A stretch of 64,000 nt of DNA from Xiphias gladius. Its lineage: Eukaryota; Chordata; Actinopteri; Istiophoriformes; Xiphiidae. Where the stretch lies: assembly GCF_016859285.1 (NCBI RefSeq), contig NC_053422.1:13380501-13444500 (forward strand), given 5' to 3'. Below are positions 5,012 to 46,100 of the stretch, piece after piece; position 1 is the first letter of the stretch; the number at the start of each line of letters is the position of its first letter. The notes below the pieces were generated by a model. That model was not told where the DNA came from. It searched no databases and worked only from the letters and a program-made list of their open reading frames with translations. The position numbers and the translations under genes were made by a program.

Positions 5012-7484
5012 TCAGTCTGCCACTTTGCCTGTTTGTTCCGCTCCTCCCACCCATGCCTGCCTGTCCTGTGGCTCCGTTCCTTCACCCGCCTCCTTATGGG
5101 CCTGCAGCTGCTGCATGAAATCATCCAGGACCTGCTGGGCTGACATGGAGGTCACATCCACAACGTCCTGCTCCAAAAGCGTCACCTTTACCCCTCCCTT
5201 CTCAACGCAGCTGTCACCACCCACATGGGCCTGCTGGAGGTTTGGAGGGATGTCAGTGTGGTTAGTGCCCAGGGGACGCTGCTGTTGGCTTTGGGGATAG
5301 AGAGGTTGTGGTCTGGCAGCATAACTGGCAGCCATTTTCTTATAGATAGCAGTGCTGATGTCAGCTACAGAGAAAGGTGGGCTGTGGCTCAACTCATGTT
5401 GATTTGAGGGACAGGCTTCAGTTCCTGTTGTTGGCACCCCCTGTTTAAACGGCATGAAGGCAGTGACCCTCTGCGGACCTGCCTCAGATTTTGTCAACCA
5501 ATCATGTGCCGCTTTAACCATTTTAGGAGTGTAAGAGTGTGAGCTGTCTCCTTGTGGAGAAGTGGCAGAGTGGCAGATTGGAACAGAGGTTGTCAGAAAC
5601 TTCTGTATGGCCTCAGCCGAGTCAAAGTGCTTCTCTAGTAGATCCTTTATCAAGCATGGTACCTGAGGAAGAGACACAAAACACAAAGATTAACTCTGAA
5701 TTCAACCCATGCAAAACAAACAGAAGAAAGGTCTTTTTACTTTGCTGAAGGTATTCTGTAATGGATCTCCTCAAAAACTCACTCTCTTGTGACTGATTCA
5801 ACTGTTTTGAAATACTTGTTTGACCTATGGTGTAATTTCAGGGACGGAGCGCAACCTCTATTATAACTCTGGGCACAGGTCACATGGATGGAAATTTTGT
5901 CTTGCACATATGGTTGCTCTAGGTTGGTTCGCACCGTTTTATAGATTAACCATACATAAAGTGCTGCTGTTGGTTGAAAACTGCACTTCAGCTTCAGTAT
6001 AAGCTTGCATTACAAGAGAGACTGTCTGACTCCTTTAAAAAAGTTCCTGCCACCGAAGATCCACAATGACAGTGATTTCCCAAGATATTGTACAAAATAC
6101 TATGGGGTACTGCAGAAAATATCATAGGAAACATGTGAGGTAGATAATATTTCCTTAAAGTAGGTCTATTCTGCTGGCAAACATATTTAAATTGCTTTAC
6201 CCATCTTAATCTAGGTCTACAGTGCCTTATGTATAGGATCTGTGCAGCTACATTATGTAAAGAAAAAACCAACCCAAGTACAGGCTAATTAAAAAAATCT
6301 GATTTAGGATCAGATACTCAATATCAAATGACCACAAGTAAAAGAGAATGGAACCAGGACATGTATAGTTTTACTGAGCTCTTTGGCTTTCCAGTGTGAA
6401 ATGTTAATAACAAGTCACTTCAAAGAGAGTCTCTTGCCATGTCCCAAATTCCACAGTGCATACTGATTCTAAGCAAGTTCGAGTGTGGAGTGTGTTCACA
6501 CTAGAAAACTGAAAAAATAAAGTATATTCAAAGTAGAAAGCATGCTAAATCCAGTTGATTTTTGAGCGCGCTGTTGAAGCACGCTACTCTCCCACAGTGC
6601 AATGTAAAAAGGAAACGGAGCCGCTGCTCATAGCTGCGAAAAATAAATAAATTAATAAATAAATTAATAAATAAATTGTGGGTTGTGGTGAAATACCTCC
6701 CAAAAGAAAAAAAAAATTCTTGGTAAAAAAAAAAGCAAGTCTTAAATCTTCGTTAAGTGGCAGTAGCTTTCCAAAGTTGCAGTTTGACTGACATCCATTG
6801 TCACTCATTGTATAATTTTCTGTATAAAAAAATGGAAAACTATGTTGATATTTTTGTCTGCTAACTGTTAAATAGTATATTTTAACAATTAGTATGCAGT
6901 ACATTCTGTATAGAATTAGTATGCAGTAGGGGACACAGTGTCTGACTTTGGGTCCCCCTGACCACTTGGGCCACCCGGGCTCGTGTCCAGTAGGCACATT
7001 CAATCATTCATCGATGCTTTCACACACATTAGTAGAGAACGTTGATTTGATGGTGAATAGTACCTTATTATCTTGACTCGGGTGTGATAAGGCTCAAACT
7101 GAAATAAGGGGAGGAGCGGTGCAACAGCAGGCTTTGAACACGCATGCAATTGCAAATATACCTGACGTTATGAAGACAGGGACACCGGGTGATGTGGTTT
7201 CATAATATCAAATTTCAAATTTTGAAATGGCCCAGCTAAAAAAGGATTAAAGACTGATCCATCCCTATAATATATTTAGTGAAATTGTTTTCTTTCTGTC
7301 GACATGTACTGAATGTGGAAGTGTGCATGGATGTCCAGTAGATGGCACTGTACTCACATTAATGTTCTGCAGGGCAGCAATGGTCCTGTGGGTGTCCTCC
7401 AACTCAGAGCTCAGTTGGGACACACGATTTAGCAGGTACTTCCTTTCACTGCTCAGGCTTCCTGACTGCACGCGCGCACACACG

Positions 7485-7547
<63 letters not shown>

Positions 7548-10500
7548 CAAGACAGAGACACAGAGAACGAGGAAATTAGCATGAAAATAGCTCATGGGTT
7601 GTGAAGGCAGAGAGGCAGGTACAAGTGATATCCCCCTTTCATTCTGCCCCTGGCCTCCCCATCCCTATCCCCATGCGAGTTTTCTCACCGCTATATGAAG
7701 GTGTTCACCCAGCAGGTTATTTACCTGCTTGGTCCCAGTGTGGGTCTCCAGAAGGCTGTTACAACACAAAAAGGCAGAAAAGATGCCCATGAAACTTTGG
7801 ATTATTTGAATGAAATACCTTAGGGCATATTATTTCTATACCTTTCACTCTATACCCTCTACGTTATCTTTAAGTAGGGTTAAAGACAGACGTTTATTAG
7901 GGCGAGTGGCACAAACTCTCCTGATGAATTTGTAACAGCTGAAACCAAACTGGAGCCCAGTTTGAGGTGACCGTTCACTCCAGTTGCTCCAGTCTGTTGC
8001 AGAATGTGTGGTATGTGCCTGGTGGGCAGTGGCAGTTGTTTGGTGTTAAATACAGGACTGACAGGACAGAAGAGTCTGACTGGTGAGTGTGAAGGGAAAG
8101 AACAGATATTTGAATCTCCCTGTCTCTGTTGGTTGGGGTAAGTGGGTTACTGCAGAACCAAAACACCCACGGAAGAGCACAGGGGGAATGCGTGGCCAGT
8201 GCTGTTCATCCAATATGTTCCATGGATCAATTAATCTGTAGAAACTGTTATGTAAAGCCATTGGTTGACTTTTATTATCAGTGGCTCTGGAGTCAATATG
8301 TGGGCACGCATCACAGCAATACCCTCTGATATAGAGGCTTGTAATCTTCAATATCTATTTGTGCGTACAAGCCACAGGGTATAAACTATGTCAATCCATT
8401 ATGCATGTTGGAATTTGTTCAGTGTACAATTCCAAACCTTTTATATTTCTCCTTGACGTGACTGAGCTCATCCCTGGTCCTCTGCAACTCTGCCTCCAGG
8501 CTCTCAATGCAAACCACCGTCTGCAGCAGGTTTTGGTGAAGGTCTGCATTCTCCTCCTGCAGTGCCCTGAACATAGAGGGAGGGTGGGAAGTTTTGTCAC
8601 ACAAGTGTAGCCTTTTTGGATCCTTACCAACAGTTTGATTTGCTGTTTTAATATGTTACATAAATATATAGAGGGGGTGAAATCAATGCAGCCTTCTCTC
8701 ATGTGCCTCCATTTTATCAATGTATCCATTGTGCATGGTCAGACAGTTTTTCTTTGATTTTGGACTTTAAAAATCCATTGTAGATACACGCTTTCTGGGT
8801 GCCACATTTTATGTCATGGTGATAACAAACCGTATAGGCAAAATGACACCAATACCTCATGAAAAAAGGGCTTGGACTCTCAAACAAACACTACAAAGAT
8901 GGGTGCTACATATCCCAGCACTATCGTAGCTATAGAGCTATAGATGTCTCACAATCAGCACTAAAACATGTCATTTTTTAGCACAAAAAAAAAAAATCTA
9001 AGTCTGGAATAACTGCATTGATGGACATCGGCATTATGTATTACATATGGGGGGGTGATAAATAATATTTTTTGGTGTGAAAACTAAAATTTAGTTGTTT
9101 AAATGTTAAAAATCCTTTTTCTATTGGTGCTTATGTGATTTTGACCTACCGTATCACTAACAACATAGAGATGGTTATGTATATAAGTTCCATAACTCTT
9201 CGCCTCTTCCTGTTAAAACAGGAGTGGAGGGAGAGAAAATGCTCATCAATGAGATCAATAACCACTGACCCATCAAGAGATAGACAGAGAACAGAATGAG
9301 ACAAAGAGAAATGTAAGAAAAGCTGTGCTCGAAAGTGAATGTGACAGAAAAGTATGAAAGACGCTTACTGGAGATGGTCGGCATTACACAGCGTGTCCTA
9401 GAAAAAGAGCAAAAGAAAGATAAGAGAAAAGTGAATAATACTCATAAGATACAGGAGACATTAAGTCACTTAGGATATGATAGACGTGTAGCTGACTTTT
9501 CATACAGTGTAGTTTTAATTTTTTTTTTTTTTTTTAACATATTCCTTGAAGAGTAAAATGGATGACAGCTTCTTCTCCACTAATCCAGTATGATGTTGAA
9601 CACTCCCTAAGCATCCAGCCTTGTAGTCATTCTTCCATTTGAATTCCAGCGGACAACTTGCAAAACAATGAAGAACAAATCACTGTCTAAATATAACACG
9701 CACTGAAGATATTTAAGCATGCCCACTTGAGTTTTCCAACCCATTTAAAGGGATATGGGAAACATAAAACTAATTGTCTGAAAAAGTTGCTGATTTGAGT
9801 CTGTAAAATCTGCATAGAAATATAGTATAAGCACCATTAGCCATTCGGGATTGGTTCCAGGCTTGGTGCTATAGGTGAAAAATCACAGATATATAAAGAA
9901 CAGTAAACAGTAAGAATAAGGTCATCACATCCATCCATCTATCCATTTATTTTCTTCTATACACACTTATTAGTTTTTAGTGTTATGGGAGCAGGAGCCT
10001 GCCCCAGCATGCATTGTGTAAAAAGCAGACTACACCCAGAATGGGTTGCCACGCCATTACTGTGGACATGATGGGTGGAATAAGCTATTGAGTTATGGCA
10101 GTCCTGAGCCCGGAAATGGAGTCTACCAGAATCGATTAGTTCTGTCCAGCTACACTGTAGCCAGGATTTTCCCCTTTGTATGTGTGTGGTTATGCACTGC
10201 ATATTTATTTGTGCGTATGTGTGATTTCGCCGAACCATTACTTGACCAGACAAACTAAGTGAGACCACATACCTACACACCAGCAACACGGAAAAAGGCA
10301 ATGTTATGTAATGTTGTATGTGTTTATTAGTACACAAGTGTGTAAGTCTGAGCCGATTGTTACATAAGAGCAACGTGAAACTAGCTCTTATTCAACCCCC
10401 TCTCACATTTGGCATAGTGCTTGCTGCTAGTGCGACAGAGTTGCCTCGTATGATGTGTGCTGTTAACTCTCTCAGGCTACATAGTCGATTCATACAACAT

Positions 10501-13500
10501 GCAGTAGCTCAGGGCAGCGCTTTGAAAACAAACAATTTCACCACTTAAACTGATAAATCGGGTAGTTTCAAATAGAGTTTCCCCTAAAAGCACAGGACTC
10601 TCATCTGCTGCATTGCTGAAGAATGACTCAGCTTGCAATGCGTAGTTTGACACAACCCACACAGCCTGTGACTCAGCTGCAGTGCCTCCGCAACAGAGGA
10701 GCAATACTCCATTTGTTATGCTCTTCCAGTTCTTTCTATGCAGTGATAACTGTCCCTTCATTGCAGTGCTATAACAAGAGCATGACTCATGATAAGAGCA
10801 AAATAAATTATATAAAGAATATAGACATTATAGCGGTAAGAAATGTTAAATAGAGAGGTAGTGTTGCAGCACAGTTTTTAATGGTTTGTTCTTGGTTTTG
10901 GTTTATTTGCACTATTTGCATGTCTTGAAGCAATCATTTCTCTATTTCAAAGGATCTTAACAGGATTCGATTCATGTCTTTCTCACAAATGCCCCATTTG
11001 AAGGCAATTTGTGTCTTAATACTAATGCTTCTCTGTCATTTCGTTCACACTGATTGATTTTATTTGATAAATATCTTAAAATTAAAACATATAAAAACCT
11101 TCCTGTGACATTTTCCTGTGGCCATTAAGGATGGTGAATGGCAGTAGTTTTCAACCACGATGTTTCAACATAGACATGCTTTGATTTGTGTCTCCTGACT
11201 TTTCTAAACTGAAGTCGGGTATGTGTGCTGTACCAGTGACATTTCACTTTCATTTTCATGATCTGAGGCCTGAAACTTCCCTTCACTCCTGTCTTTCCTG
11301 TCTCATAGTATTGTGCCCTATTAAAAGGAGCAAAACCCAAAATTAAAGGAAAACTCACCCTGTGTTGTTTAGAGTGCCCCACATGCTGCGAATAGTGTCG
11401 ACCACTCTGCTCTGAACTGTGACTGGTAGCTGTGGAGGCTGTGTCTCTGGCCCTGGATGAATCAGATTTTGTGGACGAGGTCTCCGATCCGAGGCCTGCT
11501 GCTGCGCCCTGGGCTGAGGATGGAGGGGAGCTGGCGGTTCCTCGCTGCCCAGAGCCTGGTTGCACCTGCTGAGGTGGGTGCTGGTGGAAGTGCTGGCTTT
11601 GTGGACCGTGGGAGGCAGTGGGCTGCTGTTTGCGGTGGTGGCGTTGTTTGGGTTGGCTGGGCTCAGGGCTGGTGCTGGTGCCATCAGTAAGGTGTGGGCC
11701 ACTCCTGCCATATCTGTCTCCTGACACAGAGCCTACAGTGGGCAAGGGCCTCCTGTCTTTACAGCTGCTTCCATGGTGAGAATTGTGGCTGGCAGAGCGG
11801 GAGTGGTGACGAGGTGGGGGGCTACCATGGTGATTCTTAGCTACAAATGAGATCGGTTTGTCAGGATTGGAGCAGTCTGAGTGTTTCCGAGACCTGCTGC
11901 GAGCTGCTTTCTCCTGTCTGCTGTGCTGTTTCGGATGCTGCTCCCTCTCATCTCCTGAGAGCCCTCTGTGCTTCTTGGGTGGGAGCTGAGGTTTGACTGA
12001 GCTAGGTGTTTGAGGGGCTGAGACAGGTGTCTTCTCAGTAGTTTTATTGTTCACACCTAAGATGGTAAGGTCTGATGGACTTATAACCTGTTTTGTTATC
12101 TCATCCAGAAAGGCTGAAAATTGCAACTTTCCCTGGACAAAATTTGATCTGGCTCGCTCTATCTCAGCTTGAGTAACCCCTTTCCCTTTCTGTCCACTTG
12201 GATCTTGTCCTTCGGAAACTCTTGGCGACAGCACCTCCATCGACTTAACCTTGCGAATGTCAGTATGAGGCTCCTTGTTCTTGAGGATCCCTTTGCTCGG
12301 TAGCTGGCTGGAGGACACCGCTCTCTTGGGGCCCCTGGAGACCCCTAGCAGAATGTCCTCCTCACTAAAAGCCAAGCTACGGTTCAAACTAGCTGTCTTA
12401 TACAAAGGCCCGTAGTTCATATGTGGATCCCTGCATTGTTCGCCTCCTAGATCACTTTCATTACATTGCAGAAGGCCTTCTTCACTTCTGCTGTGACCTC
12501 GGTCAAGAGAAGAAAAACCACGCTTTCCCCTCTGCTGTGACCTTCCATGTGTCTCACTACAAACGCTGCCTTTATTTCCATGTTTGATTGTGGCAAAGAC
12601 AATGGGCTCACTGCTCTCGTCTTCCCGAAAACCTCTGCGCACATCTGAGATGTTGGAGCAAGACAGGGAATGCTGTGGCCACTCTGCATGACGAAGAGAG
12701 AAGGGACCGTTTGCGCTCGCCTCGGTGTACCAGGAGGAAGAAGAGGACGAAGAAGAGGAGGAGGAAAGGGAAGAGGAGGAGGCTCTAGAGAGAGTCACAG
12801 GGTTGTGCTGGTTATAAAGTATCTCTTCCGGTTGAAATTGCTGTGTTTGATGACGATGGTGGGCATCGTGGTGTGGGCTGTCATGGACATAGTGACCTCG
12901 ATGGTGGTGGCGGGGGTGCCCATGGCTTTCATCTGTATTTCTGTCCTCATCATCAAACATTCTACAACAAAGGATAAGAAAATAAAGGCAAAATGGGCAA
13001 AGGAAAATTGGCAACTTTAATGATGTATCTGCACCAATCAGTATATATGAATATAAATCCGGCAGAGTGCAATGAACCATCCTACCTGTGGGACTGAGGG
13101 TCTTGATGATGGTGAAAGTGATGATGATGATGGTGGTGGTGCTTCTGCGGCTTGATCTCGTCCGGGGCAGAGGGGCTGTGAACAGGCTTAAAAAACTTCT
13201 CCATCACCTGTCTCTTCCCTGGTGGTAGGCTGCGGATGCCGTCCTGGTTGGGTTGACAATACAAGGGGCACTGATGGTGGTCCGTGTTGGTATTTGGCTG
13301 TTTCCTCTGCGCTGGAGCTCTATTTTTTTTCTGACAAAATTTTTCTCTATAAAGCCATAATTTATCTGTTGATGTCAGCTACAAAGATCATCACTTCAGA
13401 CCAGGGAATAATCTACTGCGGTTCATGGCCATTCTGACCACAAAAATAGGTACAGAATGTGTTTTAACCTACTTGATAAAGAGTTCAGTCCTGACAAGTT

Positions 13501-14960: not shown

Positions 14961-15468
14961 TGAACAAAAGTAACTCCCATTCTTTCCTTGTAGTACTGGT
15001 AATTTTCCACTCTGTCCGAGCAATACTCTTTCTGGGCACCAGACGCTTCTGGATATTTCTAGTTTTATCACGTACCGTCTCCAGCCAGCTCTAGCAATGT
15101 AATAATGTATCAGTTAAGTTCATGTTTAAAGGGACATTAAAGCCTGCAGTACCATTATGAAGGCTTGTAAAAATGAGTCTGTAAGTACATGATGCCACAT
15201 GATACATATGTGGAAAAAAAATACTGCAAGCACCAGCAGTTTTTGCAACAACTATCAATCTACCAAAAAAGAAAAACGCGTTATTGAACATAGGGCATCC
15301 AAGTTAAAGGAGATGAGTTGGCTGTTTCCTATTGTTCGTCAATCACAAACAGCATATCATTGCAGTAAAGGGGAAGTAGATCCGGCGAGTTCAACCATAT
15401 TCTAGTTTGATCCGGTCTGTAGAACCGCGTTACACACAAGTAAAAATTAATCCGCGCAGCCGTTCCTG

Positions 15469-15476
15469 TGACGTCA
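15469..15476. promoter_or_regulatory. CRE palindrome TGACGTCA
   Basis: A perfect CREB/ATF palindrome in a locally CpG-containing segment (GCGCAGCCG just upstream). It could serve the minus-strand gene or an upstream malat1 start. Position and match are certain; function is inferred. Confidence 0.4.
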
Positions 15477-16510
15477 GCTGTTTTGACCGTTAGTTATGTC
15501 GGTACAATACATTGAAAATGAGTCTTATTATTGTAAGTTACTCCCCTGTTATGTGTTTCAGATATTTACATATATTGAATTCAATTACCCATCGTAACAG
15601 TATCACACATTCCCGTCTCGTTTGTCTTAGTAAGCTATTTCAAACGAGAGCCACACTTTGTGTATTACTACTCTGTTTAAGAGTACCTCAGTTACAATTT
15701 ATCTTCACATATTGTATTAATTTGTTAACCCCAATGTTTTGAACTGGACTCTAAAAGCACTATTTTCATACATAATCGTTATTTGTCGTGTGAAAACGGG
15801 ACTTCTTTCTCATCGGATGAATATCTCCTCTTGTCGTAGCCGAATCACCCGAACAGTATAAATTGCGCCAGTGACGCCGTACGAATCCACTCTGCATTGA
15901 TAGATTTCGGCGTGGTAGGAAGCGTGGCAGGCCGAACCGATCTCGGGTTTTTTTTTTTCCGCTTTTCTTTTCTTTTCTTTCCTTCGTTTTGATACTTCGA
16001 GATTCAATCGTTAGGAATGACGATATGTAGATTTGCTCAATCTAGCTATATAGCAAAGAAGGGTTTGAATTTATTGTCTTTTGATGAGTCAGTGAGCGTT
16101 AGGCCCTGCCTCGAGGGTAAACCTAGCTTAAATATCAAGATACGCATTGTACTCACGAGTGACGTTCTCAGTAATACTTTTTGTCATCAAGGTTTTTGTT
16201 TAATTAATACGCTTTAGCTGGCAGATGTCAAACAAAATTAACTTTGATCAACACTAAACCTTAAATTTTTCTTTTTTTGTCAACACTAATAAGCTATCGA
16301 GCTAGAGCTAACCAGGCTAAGTGAGTTAAATATAGACTAATTTTAATGGCAACATTTTCGGAACGTTAAGTAGCCTTTCTACCCAGGCAAGAGCTGAAAT
16401 AACGCTCTCAGGTGTCAATACAACCGGTAAACGCAATGTATTTTTGTGTGAAGGCTCGAAACCAGGTCAGTGTTTTTCATGTTTGCGAGGACAGTTGGCT
16501 CAAGATGGGA

Positions 16511-16660
16511 GCCGTGACGTAGCAGCTTATAGATGTCACCTATTGGTTGATTTGAACAACGCGCTTACGTTGCCGACTTTTTTCCCTGTTGTGACGTAAC
16601 GGCACAGCGATGGAAAGGGAGTGGTCAGGATTTTACCTGCAGCCAGGCCGACAATGGCCG
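16511..16660 (+). promoter_or_regulatory. Candidate malat1 promoter
   Basis: Within 150 bases there are two GTGACGTA half-CRE motifs (about 16514-16521 and 16591-16598), an inverted CCAAT box (ATTGG at 16542-16546), and a GC-richer segment with AATGGCCGC (YY1-like) near 16650. This combination is typical of a TATA-less, constitutive promoter. It lies where the long non-coding stretch begins. The exact start site cannot be read from sequence. Confidence 0.45.
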
Positions 16661-17840
16661 CAAGGCGACCGCAAGTATTCGTTTTGTTGTAGTTAAAAAA
16701 AAAAAAAAAAAAAACTGATTGTATGAAGAAACTTAGAATGTGTGTGTATATATAATCGTCGTTTAATTGTACACTGCTGTAAACAATGAGATTTTCACTA
16801 AAATAAAAAAGCAGAGAAGTGAGACACTAAGGTTAAGGCAAGAGTCGAAGGACTTTTTTGCAATCTCGCACAGAATAGAAAGATTGAAATGATACTGAAT
16901 TCGAGTCAATAGCAGAAGGAAGTTAGCCAGGGGGAGAAGGGAGGCGCTGACTGGGGTTATAGCAAGAGAAGACTGACTGCCGTAAAGAAGTCTCGCTCAG
17001 TATAAAAAGTTAGGCTACTGAAGCCAACTAATAGCAGACGTAAAAGCAGATTTATAGACAGCCTCTGAAGATTCATCCATAGAGCAGTTATGCTATGAAT
17101 AGCTAGAGGATTAACGCCAGAAACACGAAAGCTATTGGCGCATTAAAATAGGTACACCATATCTGATATCATTGGATAACTTTTCTGGACTGAAGCACCA
17201 GAGACTAAATAGAGCCAAGACAGACGAGGACAAATAATGAAAACTGAGTCTGTTAAACAAACCAACCAACCGCCCAATTATTTCAACAACAAATTTGCTT
17301 GTTTGGAAACCAAAGAAGTAATCAAGACAATCAGTGTTTTTGTAGATATTGGTAGAAATGGTAGATGAGACTCTGGCCTCAGTCTCGAGTCTATGCAATT
17401 GTTTAGGTAAGCATCTTGAAATGCAATTTTTTAAAATATTTTTATTTTTTGTCTTGATTTGCACTTTTTTTTGTCATTACATCATTACAAGTTTGTCTTG
17501 AAAGTAATGATTTAGTTTCAAGCGACTATACTTGACCAAAGAAATAAAAGGAAAACTTTTTTTTTAAGTATCTCGGAAGGACTCGAAGATTATATTACTA
17601 GAGCTCTAGCTGTAGGTCAAGGAATCACAGGCTGAGATGCTTCAATATGGACTTTTATAAGTTGTCAACTTTTTTCTAAATTGATTAGAGAAGAGAGAAG
17701 ATTTTTCTTTTCTTTTCTTTTTTTTTTCCGGGGGAAAATGGACTGAGTTATGGAATGACCATAGTTATTGTGAGGAAGAATGGACTTAGTTATTAGAGGA
17801 AGATCGCAGGACCAGCGTGGAACAAGGCCGTGGGACACGG

Positions 17841-17928
17841 GGAGGACCAGAGTGGAGCCAGGCAGGACAGGACCAGAGGGCGTGGGAGGACCAGAATGGT
17901 GCCAGGCAGGACAGGACCAGAGGGCATG
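17841..17928 (+). repeat. 44-bp tandem duplication inside malat1
   Basis: Two copies, 17841-17884 and 17885-17928, both starting GGAGGACCAGA and containing GCCAGGCAGGACAGGACCAG. They differ at only a few positions. The GC- and purine-rich unit explains the overlapping open frames in this part, which are not genes. Confidence 0.9.
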
Positions 17929-20900
17929 GAGGAAAGAGCAGAGGGGGCCCAAAAGAGCAGGAAGCAGCAGAAGCAGCTGTCGGCGAGTGTACACCAGAGG
18001 GAGCCAGAGGCGCAGGGCAGGGTAGCGGCAAAGTGGCCATCGCTGAAGCAGCAGCAGCAGCAGGTCCAGAGCAAGCCAGCCAGTGGTGAAAGGGTGGGAC
18101 AGGGTGCACAAATGTCTTCTAGCGTCACAAGTTTAAAGCGAGGCGTTGGTTTGTATATCGGGTAGAGGTATCTACGTAACATTCCCAGGAATCTAGTTTT
18201 TTTTAAAACTACTTTCTAGAAACAATTGTTTTAGAACACAATTTCTCGCACAGCTCTCTCTTCCTCTTTTCAGGCAAGCCGTGTAAATCGTTTTGTACCG
18301 TGGTCAACACTCCTGTTGTGCGCTGACATGTGTGGTGGTGTCTGCTGTGATGAATGCCTTGCTAGTGTGCTGGCGAGAGGAACATCTTATCGGACTTCTC
18401 GACCCCCCTGCGATCGGAAGTAGTTACCCCACCCGGAGAGAGAGGCAGTCCCATATTTTTCAATAGGTCTTCCCCAGAGAAGTTTTCAGCATTGGAGTGT
18501 GAGAGTGGATGGTCTCCTGTGCAGCCGATTTGGTGTGTGTATACAACAACCCTTCAGTGCTTCAGCAGCAGCACCCCCTTGGTACAGATCAGCTACGTCT
18601 ACCTCTTAACCCAGCAGTGAGTTAATGCATGAAATGTACATGTGGGTGTAACTATCCTGTACATTGAATCATCATTACCTATGCTGTATGGTTCAGTAAT
18701 TTTTCATTCAAAAGAAAAATTGTATTTAAATAGTAGTTGATCTTAGCTGGTGAAGATTTTGGGTTAAGGGGAGGGGGTTATTTAAAACGTGTTTCGAGTT
18801 CTTCTTTTCACAGGCCTGGCCCCCTAAAGCTGATCATCGAAAGAATTCCCCTGCGCTAGCCGCTTGGTACGAGTTGAGCTCATCTTATTTACTATAGTGC
18901 TATGGATCGGGATAATGTGCATCCACGTCGCTTTAAAGAGATGTAGGAAGGTATTTGGTATGGTTCAACAAATTCATTAGATTCTTTATTCTACACTATT
19001 TGGAACGTGTTGTAAATGGGATATCATGCACATCTTTTGGGTTAGGGGAGGGTGGGTTGTGGGGCCTTAATCAGTCTCTTCCTAGACTTCACAGCTCCAT
19101 GTTATCCAACGCAAAGTGGCTTGAATAGGAAACGCCCAGGTGCACCCAACAAGATTCAAGTGGACACTTTGCTTCGCAGGATAGCAACATCAAAATTAGT
19201 CTCCTGATGTAGCGTGAAGTTCTGTTTTCCCAGGGAGTGCGGTAACAAGTTTCTTTACTTGAAGTCATTGTAATACTGTACAGGCTTCAATTTGCTTTGT
19301 GGGGTTTGGAGGCTGTGTATTTGTGACTCTTGCAGATTAAGTTATATGGCCCACCCTTCAAAAATCTACATTCAAGTCCACATCTACAGTTCATAAGGAA
19401 GGAATCCCTCGCGTTCAGGCCTGCGGTATTTAAATGCTTCTTCTGGAAAATACTTTCCATCTTTGAATTGTATCAATAGAGTTGTCCCTATTAAGGCAGT
19501 TGTACTCCTGATTACTGTAATTCCAGTGATTGTCTTTTTGTAGCTTTGCAGTTTGGTGCTGCTTCATTGTATTTGGGGAGGGGTATTGTGGGGGAGAGGC
19601 TTTTTCCTTCTGCATTTTTCAGTGTGCTGTGACCTGTGCGCTTTCCAATACCCGAGACCATCAGGAACTCTCCTAACTCATTGTATGTACAGGTTTCCTT
19701 GCGCATCGAGCATCACGTAAGGTCACTAAATGTGTTCACATTTCTCTTAACATTCATTGTCTGGCTAGATGCCTCCATTGCAATTCCTTTGCAATTAGTT
19801 ACTATGCCTTGTATTGACAATACAATGAGTGAACTATCTGTAAAGGATTTTCTTATTGCATAATAAATGCATAGCTTGTTGTGATTGAATACAGTTTTGG
19901 TATGCATTTGTTCTTTTTTGGGGGCTTGTGTGGGGGAGCTTTTCTTGTGCTTTTTCAGGTATGACTAAAGCTTGGAGCTTTGTAGAGCACGGATGTGACC
20001 TGGGTTCGAATGACATCCTTTTCAAAGTGGAAATTGAAGGCAGATAAGTTGAATCCATCAAATATTGATGTTGGAAAACAGAAAACTCTCAACCCTAATG
20101 GGGGTCCCTTATCTTGAATGGGCTCAACTGCCCCTATTTTCGAAATGAAAGCAACTTGCTATACTTGACTGTAGAAATAGCACTGCTGTGCTTTCTTAAC
20201 AAGTCTCTTGTGATAACGGGAAGATTTGATGGACCTTCATTGATTCTGACGTTATCTGCAGTAAAGCATTTGGGTAAGGATAACAATAGTCAGTTCTACG
20301 ATACTGTGGGGGGGGGCGGGCCTAGGGGTGTTTCTTGTCTGCCTCTTGTCTGATCTTACAGAACAGTCCAAAGGAAGAATGCAGTCTACCTAGGACAACA
20401 CAGGAATCATCCTGCCCTTTGAAATCGACCTTCACGCAGTTTGAACAAATGGAGTCAGGTTGTTTTCTGGTGAATATAGATTGGAACAATTAGCCCTCAG
20501 CTACTAGCCCTTGCGCAACTGTGCACGTGGCAGGTTGGTCCCATTAAATTACTTGGAATCGCGCGACTGTGCGAAGTTGTCAAAATTTATGTAGCTGAGG
20601 AAAGCTGTGCATGGTACAGCTTTAATTGGGTCTGAAATGCAGCGCAAATGTGTTGCTGTAATTGAAATTGTGCATTGGGTTTGGTTGGGCGTATCCCTAC
20701 ACTTCTTTTCACAGAAATCAGAGTGCAAGACTGGTTCAAGCACGAGTGAAGTCCTCTAACCTGGAACTTGTAGTAAGATGTTGGCTTAACTTGTCAAATT
20801 AATCTTCTGCAATGTTTTAGTTGAAAACATGACATCTTGGAACTGGCTTTATGTTAACCTCAAATCATCAGTAACAACAATGCTTTACTAGCATATTCCT

Positions 20901-22149
20901 CTTTGGCCATGGGGCCCTATTGCTTTGCATTTTAAACCATAAGATGAGTAGAACTCGAATCTTTGAGTATTGTGTGGTGGGTGTGTTGTGTAGATCACTC
21001 TTTGTTTCAGATCATTCTCGTCTGTCCACTCCGATCTCGCCTGCCTCTGAATGCAAAGCCATCTGTGGAAGCTGTCAGCAAATGAGTGTGGCCCCTGAAT
21101 GAAGTACCAAACCCCTGTGCGCTTGAGCTTAAATCTGAACCCTTGACGTCCTTCGCAGAAGCCCCGCTATCTGTGTGTCTGTGTGCCTTTTCTCTTTTTC
21201 CCTTTGGTTTCTCAGGTCAAATTGCCTAAAAATTGTCTTTTATTTGTCATCTGGGATGGCCTAACCTGTGATGGAGCACTGAGAATCCAGTCACATTAAG
21301 ATCAAGAGCTGCAAGCTTGTCTCGCTAATACTGCATCACTTCAGTCTCATGGGTGCTAAGTTAAGTAATTTCGGTTCCCTTGATTTTTTTTCTTTAACTT
21401 ACCATGGCTTAAATGTGTAACTCAACATGTTGCATGCACATCAGCTCTGCATAACATTTTAATCGTAATACACAACATAATACTCACAAAGTCGTCAAAC
21501 ATTGCAGTAGTATTCGGTAAGGGGTTTTCTTTGGGGGGGCAACACTTCTCTCTCTTCTTTCAGATTTCTCGTTCAGCTTAACTTGGTACTGAGCCAGGCG
21601 ACTTAAACTTCTACAGGGAGTCATGCTTCAGAGTCATGGGATGTCTTGGTACAGCAAGCCTCTAGGGTACAATCTTAATTTCTTTGAAGAATCGAACATC
21701 ACCGAGGAAGAATAGCTGTGGTAAATGCTGCTATGCCATTCGCGTTAAACAAGAACCATATTGACATAATTTGTCATTGGATGAGTATTGGGAATTCAGT
21801 GTGGGGTTTGTTTTTTTTGGGTGGGTGGGGGGGCAGGCTTAAATTGTCTGTCTTCTTTCCATTACAGCTGTAAACATGGCAAGAAAGCCATCACAGATTG
21901 TTTGACCTCCGATTCCTGCCGAATTTCAAAGGGGACATGGCTTTTGAGTATCACCAGGGATGCTGGTATCGTGGCTTTGTTAATTTGGATAAAGGATATC
22001 GTGGAATAAGTCATATACCAATGCAGTGTTGCTGTGGGGAATGCTGGGGATTGGGGAAACCAGTTGTCTTTTTCTTCTAGTTTCAGCCTCGTGACCAAGA
22101 GAAATCCCCATGTGGTGACAGGATAATATAGCAGCCAGGTGTTTAGGGG

Positions 22150-22237
22150 TTTTCTTTTCCTGGAGGAACAAACTATTGGTTTTGTTCCTCCAGGTTTTGC
22201 TTTTGCCCTTTATTGCAGCAACTACAAAAAAGCAAAA
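22150..22237 (+). ncRNA. malat1: malat1 triple-helix stability element (ENE plus A-rich tract)
   Basis: U-rich motif 1 (TTTTCTTTT, 22150-22158) is followed by a perfect 14-bp stem, 22159-22172 with 22181-22194, around an 8-base loop. U-rich motif 2 (TTTTGCTTTT, 22195-22204) and then the A-rich tract AAAAAAGCAAAA (22226-22237) follow. Both U-rich motifs and the A-rich tract match my knowledge of the human MALAT1 element base for base, including the interrupting C-G-C positions that form the C-G doublet. In the known structure the A-rich 3' end pairs into the U-rich loop as a U-A-U triple helix and blocks decay. Order, spacing and the cleavage-adjacent position are all as expected. Confidence 0.95.
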
Positions 22238-22296
22238 GACTCCGGTGGTGGCACTCCCAACGTTGTCGGGACAGGGTTCAATTCCCTGCGGTGTCT
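22238..22296 (+). ncRNA. mascRNA, tRNA-like RNA from malat1
   Basis: Begins GACTCCGGTGGTGGCACTCC directly after the A-rich tract, at the position RNase P cuts in mammals. The acceptor stem GACTCCG/CGGTGTC (22238-22244 with 22289-22295) pairs at six of seven positions, with a U-U mismatch at position 4. The T-arm CAGGG-TTCAATT-CCCTG (22272-22288) is perfect and contains a consensus B box. A short middle arm (TCCC/GGGA) replaces a normal anticodon arm, and the D-arm is reduced, as in mammalian mascRNA. It is trimmed at the 3' end by RNase Z in mammals, then given CCA and exported to the cytoplasm. The reduced arms argue against an ordinary tRNA. Confidence 0.95.
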
Positions 22297-22359
22297 TGCT
22301 TCTTTGGTGTGCTGTCTGGGTGGAAACTTGTACAACAGTTTTGTAATGTGCAAATGGTT

Positions 22360-22365
22360 AATAAA
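22360..22365 (+). terminator. Poly(A) signal just past mascRNA
   Basis: AATAAA 64 bases after mascRNA. Mammalian MALAT1 also has a poly(A) signal just beyond mascRNA that is used by a minority of transcripts. Another AATAAA near 22879 could end a longer precursor. Confidence 0.5.
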
Positions 22366-22369
22366 ACTC

Positions 22370-23527
22370 CTTTTTACTTCGATTCAGTTTCATCTTTCAA
22401 ATGTGAGAATTCCTTTTCCTCTGGAGGCAAAGAGGTATGGCATTTGGTAAATACTGATTTACTTATGATTGTCACATAATGGCAAATGCATTGTCATAAA
22501 GCAAAATATTGAGAGAATGGTAATTCATATGAAGAGCAGGGAATTGAAGACGAGGTGGTATCAAAGATACTGTCTGCAGGCCTCAGCACAAATTTATTTT
22601 ATTTTTTTTTAAAGCTGTAGAAGATGACTTAAAATTTCATTTACAAAGGTCTCGAATGTTTCTTCTTGCCTTTAGACTAAAAGAACCTGGAGATACTGTT
22701 GGGAGACAAATGCCTGTAGACTACATGGCTGACTGGACTGTACAGTGTAATTATTGTGTGAAGTTGCAAGTGTCTATTTTAACACAAATGAATTATTTTG
22801 CACTTAGGTGACCCCTCTGTCAATTTTCTGCCATGAAGTGGGTATGGGTCACATTAGATATTTAATTATATCACCAGAAATAAAAGGTTTTGAAAAACTT
22901 ACTGTACATTTATTTTGTATATTTGTATGTAATATATATTTTCTGATTGTCTTTGACCAGTATGACCATTAAAAATGTATTGAATTGCATTGTGTGGGTT
23001 TTTTCTTTTTTTTTCTGTCAAATTTGCTAACATGAGTTTTAAAGGAACCTGTTTAGAGAGGATAGGAGCCAATAATGTCCAGTACAGTGGTGTATTTTAA
23101 ATAAGCAAATTTTGCAGAACATTATGTACAAGTGGGTGACATATGAAAGGAATAAAAAAAGGTCAAGACACCAGATCAGCTTCAATACAACTGCATTTAG
23201 ACAGGTAAGAATGTCCTTTGTAACCCATCTGTGTTTGTAAAAGTCAAACAGTACATGGTGTGAGATGCAAACAAGATGTTTTAAGCTGAAATACAAAAAC
23301 CCCTAAAGGGGAACTTATTTCCATAGCAGTGTCTTGGTGTGCCAACAGCCTTCACTTACCGAACAAAGTCATATTTGACATGTTATCTTGTATCTTAACA
23401 TCTGAAATTACTACTATATATTAATATACTGTATTAACATATTAAACTGAACAGCAGTTAAAATGCATGGAATTTAAATAAATATATCACAAGAACACAC
23501 AAACCTAAAAAGTGATCATCTTAACAT
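22370..23527. other. AT-rich flank downstream of malat1, no gene seen
   Basis: It resembles a 3' flank or alternative malat1 precursor tail: AATAAA near 22879 and ATTAAAA near 22970. No exon or RNA structure recognised. Confidence 0.5.
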
Positions 23528-25227: not shown

Positions 25228-33939
<8,712 letters not shown>

Positions 33940-43022: not shown

Positions 43023-43059
<37 letters not shown>

Positions 43060-43148
43060 TACATATATACATATATGTATTTATGTATATATGTGTATAT
43101 ATGTACATATGTGTATATGTGTATATATACACATATATACATAAATAC

Positions 43149-43181
<33 letters not shown>

Positions 43182-46100
43182 TATGTATGTATGTATATGT
43201 ATTATATACAATGGTATTTTTTATTTTATACAAGATATGAATTGAATATATTTTAGGGATGCGATGCAACTAATGATTATTTCCATTATCAGGGATTTAA
43301 ATTAAAAAAAATTGTAGAGCTAAAATGATTAGTCGACCGACACATTTAATCTGTCGATTTAATAGAAATTAATCAATTGATAGTAAAAAAAAAAATCCAT
43401 CCATCCAAAAATGCCTAATATTACCTAGTTCTAGCTTCTCAATTATGACAATCTGCTGGTTTTTTTTTTGTTTGTTTTTTGTTTTTTGACTCATGTGACA
43501 TGGAGTTGCAGAGATCAGTCAGTTAAATCACCATGTATTTTAATGATCAATTATTTATGTATTTTTTTTAATTTATCAAGCAAATTAATGGTTTGTCAAA
43601 ACAAGAGTTTAGAAGACTTGACTTCGGGCTTTAGAGTCTAGGAAATTGTGAAGTTTTGTTTTTTTCTGTTTTACGATTGTTTTTTTTTTCATTTTATAGA
43701 CTAAACAATTAATCAATTAATCGAAAAATAATGGGGAGGTGAATTGATGATAAAAATAATGGTTGTAATCCTAATGTGATGGGAATCTAAACACTAAAAC
43801 ATGTCGAAGATGTACGATTGAACTCTGGAAAATTGTGATTGGCAGTTTTCACTATTTTCTGAAATATTTTGGACATATATATAAATTTAAAATTTGCCAA
43901 TTTAACATATTTTTCTTCATATATTGGAGCTCCAACAATTACTTGATTAGGCAATTGAAAGAAAATTAATCTACAGCTATTTTGATAGTTATTGAATTGT
44001 TTAATGACCGAAAAGATAATGCAAAAAAAACAAAAAAACAAACAATATATTTGCTGGTTCCAGTTTCACTTACACGAAGATTTGCTGCTTGTCGTCATCA
44101 TGTATGAAAGTTAATTAAACATTTTTTGGTGTTAGACCTCCCTTTGGGCTCTGGGAAGTTGCGATTGGTGTCCTTCACTACTTCATCTTCCATTTCATGG
44201 ACTAAACGATTAACTGACAAAATAATCCATGATGAAAATATTTGATAGTTGCAGCCCTAAAATATACGCATCTTTCTCTTTCTTGTTGTTAATGATGTAT
44301 TAATATATCTTGATGGGTAGTGTGGATTGAACCTTCCCTTCTGACACACTTTCAGACACACACCTCTTTTTTCATTCATTTTCTGCTTCTGGATGCTAAA
44401 CCTCCCACTGGGGAAATAATTTCATCCCGTCCACCCCTCTCCTCTAGCGCCCAGGAACTGTCCCAGGAGATCAAGTCGTTCATCAGTGGCGTTGACACTG
44501 TTCAGGGCCGGAAGCTCAGTGTCCGGGAACACGCCCGCTGTGCTGTGCGGCTGCTGCGCTCGGTCCCGGCCTGTCGAGGGGCAGTGCTGGAGCATCTGAG
44601 GGGCGTGTACGATGAGCACGTCTCCGCCTTCCTGCACAACCTGGAGACGGAGGGGGATGCCAGCTCTGGGGTTGGCTCTAACCTGGAGGACATCATACAG
44701 GTGGGACATACATATAACTTCTTATAAAACTAATACCTTATATTGAAAATCATAAAGTATTGAAAATATTAAGGTTGATAAAGATTAGAACATTACAGGC
44801 CATTTTTATTGCTAGTCCTCATTGAAGGGGTACATTAGAGGTTGCATGCCAAATCAGCTGAGGTGTTCTTGTATAACCTAGTATCCTATAAATCACTCAT
44901 AGAAATAGGATAATGGTTAGGAAATTCCTTGGAAAATGGTCGTAATTATTTCTGTTTGTCTGTAGGAGGTTCATGGCGTGCTATCAGAGTTCATCCGGCT
45001 CAACCCCCGGGCCTGGGCCCCCCTGGTGTCTGCCTGGGCTGTGGACTTGTTGGGCCAGCTGAGCAGCAAGCACGCTGGCCGCAGGGTGGCCCCCCACTCT
45101 TCCAGCCTCAACGAGCTGCTTCAACTCTGGATGTCTTGTGCCGCCACCCGGTCCCTCATGGAGGCCTACTCTCAGTGTTTGGCTGCCATGCTGGCCTGGT
45201 GTCCTGATGCCTGTGTGGATGCACTGTTAGACACCTCGGTTCAACACTCCCCGCATTTTGATTGGGTGGTGGCTCACATTGGGTCTGCCTTCCCGGGTAC
45301 TATCATCAGCCGAGTCTTGGCATGTGGACTAAAGGACTTCTGCTCTCATGGCGCCAAGGAACAAGGGCTAATGGTGATGGGAGTGGATAAAGGCAACAGA
45401 GTGCCCAAGATTGGCTCGGTGGTGGGAATTCTTGGACACCTTGCAGCGCACCACTCAGACAGCATCAGGAAGGAGCTGCTGAGGATGTTTCAGGAGAGCC
45501 TAAGTCCATCAAGCCCTCTTTCTCCCACTTCATCCTCTACATCCTGGGAGAGTTCCCCTCAGCTTCGTCGAGCCGCAGTACCATTTCTGCTACAGCTGGC
45601 TGCAATGTCCCCCAACCTCTTTGGTGCCGTGTCTGCAGAGCTGGTAGAGCTGTTACGCCCCCCTGTCCTGCTCCAGCTGCAGGCCTTGCTGCAGGGCCTT
45701 CCCAGAGAGGAACTGGATAACATGCTGGGGCTTGCTGTCCACCTCATAAGCCAGAGTCCATCAGGAGGGGCCCGGGTCCTCCGTTTTCTGGCAGACACTG
45801 CGACCCCGGCCTCAGTCATCATCTCTGGCCCAACACCCTCCCCTCATGAAGGAGTCAGGGAAGGTTGTGACCGCCTCCTCCAGATGCTGCTTCTGCATCT
45901 CCACAAACTGGTCTTCAACCGCTCAGATGGAGTTGAAGGAAATCCCCATCACTCTGCTTCGTCTCAGCCCCAGAGGGTCATCCCCTTCTTGGAGGAGCTG
46001 CAGTCCCATGTGGGTGAGCTCTGTGCTGAGACACTGCGACTGGAGAGAAAACGTCACCTCTGGCTGCACCAGCTTCTTTGTCTGCTGTCAGTGTATGGGG

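Follow-up and report, generated by a model that had tools for sequence, protein, structure and literature searches.

A MALAT1 gene in the swordfish Xiphias gladius with a triplex and mascRNA 3′ end and acceptor-like modules in its predicted transcript

Results

In this study, positions 22150-22296 of a 64,000-nucleotide stretch of Xiphias gladius DNA (hereafter the window; NC_053422.1, GCF_016859285.1) were identified, almost certainly, as the 3′ end of a single-copy ray-finned-fish MALAT1 gene, whose RNA would be processed by RNase P and RNase Z and end in a triple helix. The sequence, the strand register, the one copy found and the synteny were observed directly at the MALAT1 locus. All positions refer to the window, and published work is cited by the passages available to us. 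The 3′-end element consists of the following parts.

22150..22158, + strand: U-rich motif 1 (TTTTCTTTT), the Hoogsteen strand
22159..22194, + strand: hairpin between the U-rich motifs, 36 nt, with a perfect 14-bp stem and an 8-nt loop
22195..22204, + strand: U-rich motif 2 (TTTTGCTTTT), the Watson-Crick strand
22205..22227, + strand: linker of 23 nt between U-rich motif 2 and the A-rich strand
22228..22237, + strand: A-rich strand (AAAAGCAAAA), at whose last base the mature lncRNA is predicted to end
22238..22296, + strand: mascRNA with discriminator base, assigned by RF01684 and fold, with a U-U mismatch at acceptor pair 4

The three triplex strands lie in register for nine base triples (eight U-A-U and one C-G-C) and one C-G doublet, in the order of four U-A-U, one C-G-C, the doublet lacking a third base, and four U-A-U, which is the register of the MALAT1 triple helix. 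As in MALAT1, the A-rich strand directly abuts the mascRNA, with 0 bases between them (22237/22238). The first-pass annotation had already placed a triplex element and a mascRNA here, and the pattern and covariance searches described below recovered both at the same positions, the perfect 14-bp stem included. Its description of all parts as following each other with no gaps holds for the junction of the A-rich strand and the mascRNA, but not for the 23 nt of linker before the A-rich strand.

The pattern TTTTCTTTT-N(20-50)-TTTTGCTTTT-N(10-40)-AAAAGCAAAA matched once in the window (22150-22237) versus 0 of 100 dinucleotide shuffles. It matched once in the whole assembly of 690,834,319 bases, in which the backward-read pattern gave 0 matches, and 0 matches were obtained in a viral contig collection. 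When the 161-base element was searched as DNA against the genome (E ≤ 10), only the element and, in reverse, a 36-base match within its own hairpin were returned. The fold of the element had a z score of −3.55 and was equalled by 1 of 200 shuffles.

Using cmscan on the window, the Rfam family RF01684 (mascRNA-menRNA) was matched at 22238-22295 on the + strand with 67.7 bits and an E value of 5.4e-12, covering positions 1-56 of the 56-position model and exceeding the curated cut-off of 42.5 bits; the element thus belongs to this family, the only one at gathering score in the window. The assembly holds at least one match to RF01684, a count that is a lower bound since 68 of the 71136 first-look candidates were scored. 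From the pattern counts, the shuffles, the RF01684 count, the DNA search and the gapless abutment of the triplex to the mascRNA, a chance origin of the two together is excluded for practical purposes.

A covariance search with the mascRNA-menRNA model and a MALAT1 ENE model had been proposed in the first-pass annotation; the former gave the match above, and no MALAT1 triplex or ENE model was among the 40 Rfam matches listed for the window at E ≤ 2. The sole other match over the element at this E value, a plastid 3′UTR model at 22157-22200 over the hairpin, was rejected, as it lay far under its cut-off (27.5 versus 55.8 bits, E 0.5). The rest were mainly microRNA models matching simple repeats, besides individual snoRNA and scaRNA models; those with compared scores were under cut-off, and the mascRNA alone passed its gathering score. 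An AT/GT-rich simple-repeat array at 43023-43208 draws many of the sub-threshold microRNA model matches. No tRNA was detected in the window by ARAGORN.

The mascRNA carries, besides the U-U at acceptor pair 4, one A-C mismatch in its anticodon-like stem. Folded alone, it had a z score of −0.73 and 41 of 200 shuffles were as good; since its fold energy is not below that of the shuffles, the support for the mascRNA is its covariance score and its position. The two mismatches would also suit a decayed locus, where the DNA motif persists without transcription or processing, but every triplex strand is intact, as is the entire 14-bp stem, the mascRNA scores 25 bits over the cut-off, and a TATA box and a CpG-rich promoter-like stretch are present, so that we regard decay as highly improbable. 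The 5′ GA start of the mascRNA would argue against CCACCA tagging, as understood from work on CCA addition.

Compared with the 94-nt human MALAT1 construct in the available part of PMC5871880, where each U tract has an outer stretch of five U, the swordfish has four, giving one U-A-U triple fewer. The three strands had been equated with those of human MALAT1 in the first-pass annotation; this stands for the cores of 9, 10 and 10 nt but not for the U tracts, each of which is one U shorter. The hairpin stem differs in sequence from that of the human construct, as the first-pass annotation had noted for the stem. At 36 nt, the hairpin exceeds the mammalian MALAT1 mean of 31.4 ± 1.9, while the linker (23 nt) is nearer to the mammalian MALAT1 mean of 23.6 than to the NEAT1 mean of 29.8 (PMC12941219, available part). 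The mascRNA mismatches, the shorter triplex, the longer hairpin and the mascRNA fold energy count against the reading as a MALAT1 3′ end.

The genes identified downstream of the element are as follows.

25228..33000 (approximate extent), + strand: SCYL1-like gene, first coding exon 25228-25335
39.4-39.8 kb, − strand: LRAT-domain gene (Pfam)
44.9-48.1 kb, + strand: INTS5 (Pfam)
56.3 kb (position of the Pfam match), + strand: GH31 glucosidase gene (Pfam)

Three joined exons of the first of these genes encode a kinase-like N-terminus with a Pfam kinase match below the cut-off, and a weak HEAT repeat match (Pfam) was also obtained. Searched against PDB, the joined exons matched 78 sequences, of which the best 60 were all MARK or CDK kinases, and one single exon gave no match. 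This gene is probably SCYL1, as judged from the protein and from the synteny. It is next 3′ of MALAT1 and on the same strand, the orientation of ray-finned fish.

According to the available text of Weghorst 2024 (PMC10869381), MALAT1 in ray-finned fish is a single-copy gene followed by SCYL1 on the same strand, at a locus without FRMD8; the swordfish gene fits this description in its one copy and its SCYL1-like 3′ neighbour. With vertebrate MALAT1 as described there and in the partly available sources above, it has in common the order of triplex and mascRNA, the same-strand downstream SCYL1 and the single copy, and no difference in kind was seen. FERM_M had 47 matches genome-wide and 0 in the window, where a divergent FERM could escape the profile; the nearest match lies ~216 kb 5′ of the mascRNA, on this same contig. 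No FERM was matched by Pfam in 30 of the 101 listed ORFs of the window, including 18 of the 24 upstream ORFs.

Upstream of MALAT1, the − strand at 5012-13203 holds long ORFs of 225 and 692 aa of a protein gene, the 692-aa one being serine- and histidine-rich; neither had a Pfam or NCBIfam match, and the NCBIfam search of 4 window ORFs gave no match. A weak tetraspanin match on the − strand at 1126-1416 was under the Pfam cut-off (18 versus 32.1 bits).

The 3′ end of NEAT1 (MEN-beta) has the triplex/tRNA-like architecture and the Rfam family in common with the swordfish element, and PMC10869381 cites dispersed TripHelMasc copies in anole and some fish, so both a NEAT1 orthologue and a dispersed copy were considered in place of MALAT1. 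NEAT1 has, in the parts of PMC10869381 and PMC12941219 available, been reported only in tetrapods, with a longer linker than that of the swordfish and a position between FRMD8 and MALAT1. No second triplex gene was found in the genome, where the triplex pattern, RF01684 and the DNA search each gave a single copy; together with the SCYL1-adjacent locus and the MALAT1-like linker, this leaves either identity with very little probability.

The following features were assigned to the transcription unit of MALAT1.

15857..15863, + strand: TATA box (TATAAAT) of the predicted promoter, a TATAWAW match in a CpG-rich stretch
15889..22237, + strand: predicted MALAT1 lncRNA, ~6.35 kb, its start placed by TATA/CpG, GC skew and the predicted RNase P site
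22360..22365, + strand: AATAAA 3′ of the mascRNA, which might serve as a signal for the primary transcript when uncleaved

We infer a transcript start at about 15885-15895, some 30 bases 3′ of the TATA box; in birds, the MALAT1 TATA box lies 25-35 bp upstream of the start (Weghorst 2024, PMC10869381, available text). Two other TATA matches, at 16747 and 17001, are rival candidates. The CpG observed/expected ratio was 1.15-1.33 over 15401-16900 and 0.31-0.56 from 16901 to 22400, and the GC skew of the + strand was 0.18, 0.09 and 0.06 over 16001-22000. Within the CpG-rich stretch, 16510-16660 contains two copies of GTGACGTA and one of AATGGCCGC, presumably CRE-like and YY1-like motifs, respectively, which could mark an alternative promoter. 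The 5′ part of the body is purine-rich at 17740-18100 with imperfect 44-nt tandem repeats, which we assume, from binding preference, are perhaps SR-protein sites.

Maturation by RNase P and a triplex-protected end are the standard mechanism of MALAT1. Given the sequence features of the MALAT1 3′-end module and the expected synteny, processing by RNase P and RNase Z with triplex end protection is very likely the best reading here. RNA polymerase II would transcribe an RNA of ~6 kb, RNase P would cleave it at 22237/22238, and RNase Z would cleave after ~22296 to release a 59-nt mascRNA to which CCA would be added. The new 3′ end would then fold back, its A-rich strand pairing with U-rich motif 2 while U-rich motif 1 would sit in the major groove to form the nine triples and the C-G doublet, so that the triplex would terminate flush with the cut site, substituting for a poly(A) tail. 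Transcription, cleavage, the tail-less end and nuclear retention are expected by analogy with MALAT1 biology.

In the 3′ 4 kb of the lncRNA body, eight modules of G-runs, pyrimidine tract and AG, resembling 3′ splice sites, were found on the + strand and 0 on the − strand.

18761..18813, + strand: module 1, G-runs, pyrimidine tract and CAG
19575..19622, + strand: module 2
19920..19958, + strand: module 3
20308..20361, + strand: module 4
20677..20714, + strand: module 5
21521..21563, + strand: module 6
21790..21867, + strand: module 7
22036..22080, + strand: module 8, 69 nt 5′ of the triplex

Modules were scanned as a 14-nt tract with at least 11 pyrimidines before NYAG, its last bases free of AG, preceded within ~85 nt upstream by at least two G-runs totalling at least 7 G. 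The body (15901-22240) contains 8 of the 17 + strand modules of the window, all at 18.7-22.1 kb, and 0 of the 9 on the − strand. Markov sequences of the body yielded a mean of 0.76 modules at first order (maximum 4, n = 300) and 1.33 at third order (maximum 6, n = 300). Controls from 20 regions of 10 kb of the same genome, read on both strands, gave 0.37 modules expected per 4.04 kb, with a maximum of 2 in 240 overlapping windows; the maximum was 4 in 94 windows of 4.04 kb from the rest of the stretch. The excess held at 10, 11 and 12 pyrimidines (10, 8 and 6 modules versus 0.70, 0.37 and 0.10 expected) and was weaker at 13 (1 versus 0.03). Five further candidates, weaker or picked by eye, have their ends at 18273, 19094, 19335, 21010 and 21215.

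The two halves of the module were also coupled. A pyrimidine-AG site lay within 60 nt of 7 of the 11 G clusters at 18.2-22.24 kb versus 23 of 285 in the controls (Fisher P 1.4e-5), and of 6 of 60 on the + strand and 5 of 63 on the − strand elsewhere in the window; a circular shift within the body gave P 0.011. Conversely, at least 7 G were found upstream of 7 of 13 pyrimidine-AG sites in the body, 37 of 655 in the controls and 8 of 104 elsewhere on the + strand. With 11 G clusters, the region at 18.2-22.24 kb surpasses the highest control count (10 per 4.04 kb), and its 15 pyrimidine-AG sites are inside the range of the controls (mean 6.6, maximum 18). The module thresholds were fixed after the sequence had been seen, so these P values are descriptive.

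Even spacing was considered for a by-eye list of 13 sites, which looked regular, and was rejected; the eight strict modules lie 213-849 nt apart, and no period is therefore claimed. Recent tandem duplication was likewise rejected. In an alignment of 11 modules, in which six of the eight strict modules were present in full together with five others or parts, mean column identity was 45% and the alignment was mainly in the G-runs and the pyrimidine-AG part; with little sequence in common beyond the rule, the modules lack the appearance of recent copies.

The lncRNA was not depleted of 5′ splice sites, with 13, 1 and 0 sites at scores of ≥5, ≥6 and 7 compared with means of 13.94, 1.69 and 0.07 in 160 control windows. 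Such a depletion would have fitted a decoy role of the modules; its absence, the uneven spacing and the little shared sequence count against that role. This background level of 5′ splice-site-like motifs, the good one at 16466 upstream of the modules, and the resemblance of the modules to real intron ends would be compatible with a multi-exon transcript in which the modules are true 3′ splice sites rather than decoys. However, only one 5′ splice-site-like sequence in the predicted transcript scores ≥6, and a single donor would not suffice for eight acceptors within the same RNA. MALAT1 is moreover described as intronless in the available part of a 2018 review (PMC6199362); two retained introns are reported for human MALAT1 in a 2026 preprint (PMC12934665, available part). 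True splice sites are on balance an unlikely explanation.

Discussion

The 3′-end machine of the swordfish adds at most a further orthologue to a system already described and is not new as a class. MALAT1 is present across jawed vertebrates (Weghorst 2024, PMC10869381, available text, which cites the vertebrate MALAT1 work of Stadler 2010 and Zhang 2017), and this conservation of a known module makes the first-pass ranking of it as the strongest unusual system in the window an overstatement. The same text reports correct MALAT1 annotation only in manually curated genomes, so the value of the element is in fixing the coordinates of the gene.

The module array is less expected than the 3′ end and is the part deserving a second look. 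Tentatively, the 3′ two thirds of fish MALAT1 may form an array of at least eight mock 3′ splice sites, by which the RNA would be retained in speckles as an unfinished pre-mRNA. G-runs bind hnRNP H/F. The pyrimidine tracts might bind U2AF2 or PTB and the AG might bind U2AF1, and the modules could thus load hnRNP H/F, U2AF and PTB without productive splicing. We hypothesize that, by recruiting U2AF and hnRNP proteins, the modules help to hold the RNA in nuclear speckles.

In the available part of the 2018 review (PMC6199362), U2AF65 on mature RNA promotes nuclear retention and the speckle-targeting regions E and M of MALAT1 are called ill-defined. Human MALAT1 leaves speckles upon loss of U2AF2 or deletion of one retained intron, according to the part of the preprint available (PMC12934665); the pyrimidine-tract sequences that it ties to U2AF2 and speckle localisation in the retained introns resemble the modules. 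The human RNA has two such introns with weak tracts, whereas the swordfish has an array of eight acceptor-like modules coupled to G-runs. Half of the module is already known, since G-runs of the G-quadruplex type are reported as frequent in mammalian MALAT1, at 9.1 per orthologue (PMC12941219, available part). An array of acceptor-like modules in MALAT1 was not named among the papers listed by the literature searches, which covered few subscription papers.

If the array holds in other fish and in mammals, it would be a concrete candidate for the speckle retention of an intron-poor, mRNA-like RNA. It would also link to the U2AF2-dependent speckle localisation of MALAT1 described in the available part of the 2026 preprint (PMC12934665) and, if true, would amount to a reiterated form of the as yet undefined signal that targets MALAT1 to speckles.
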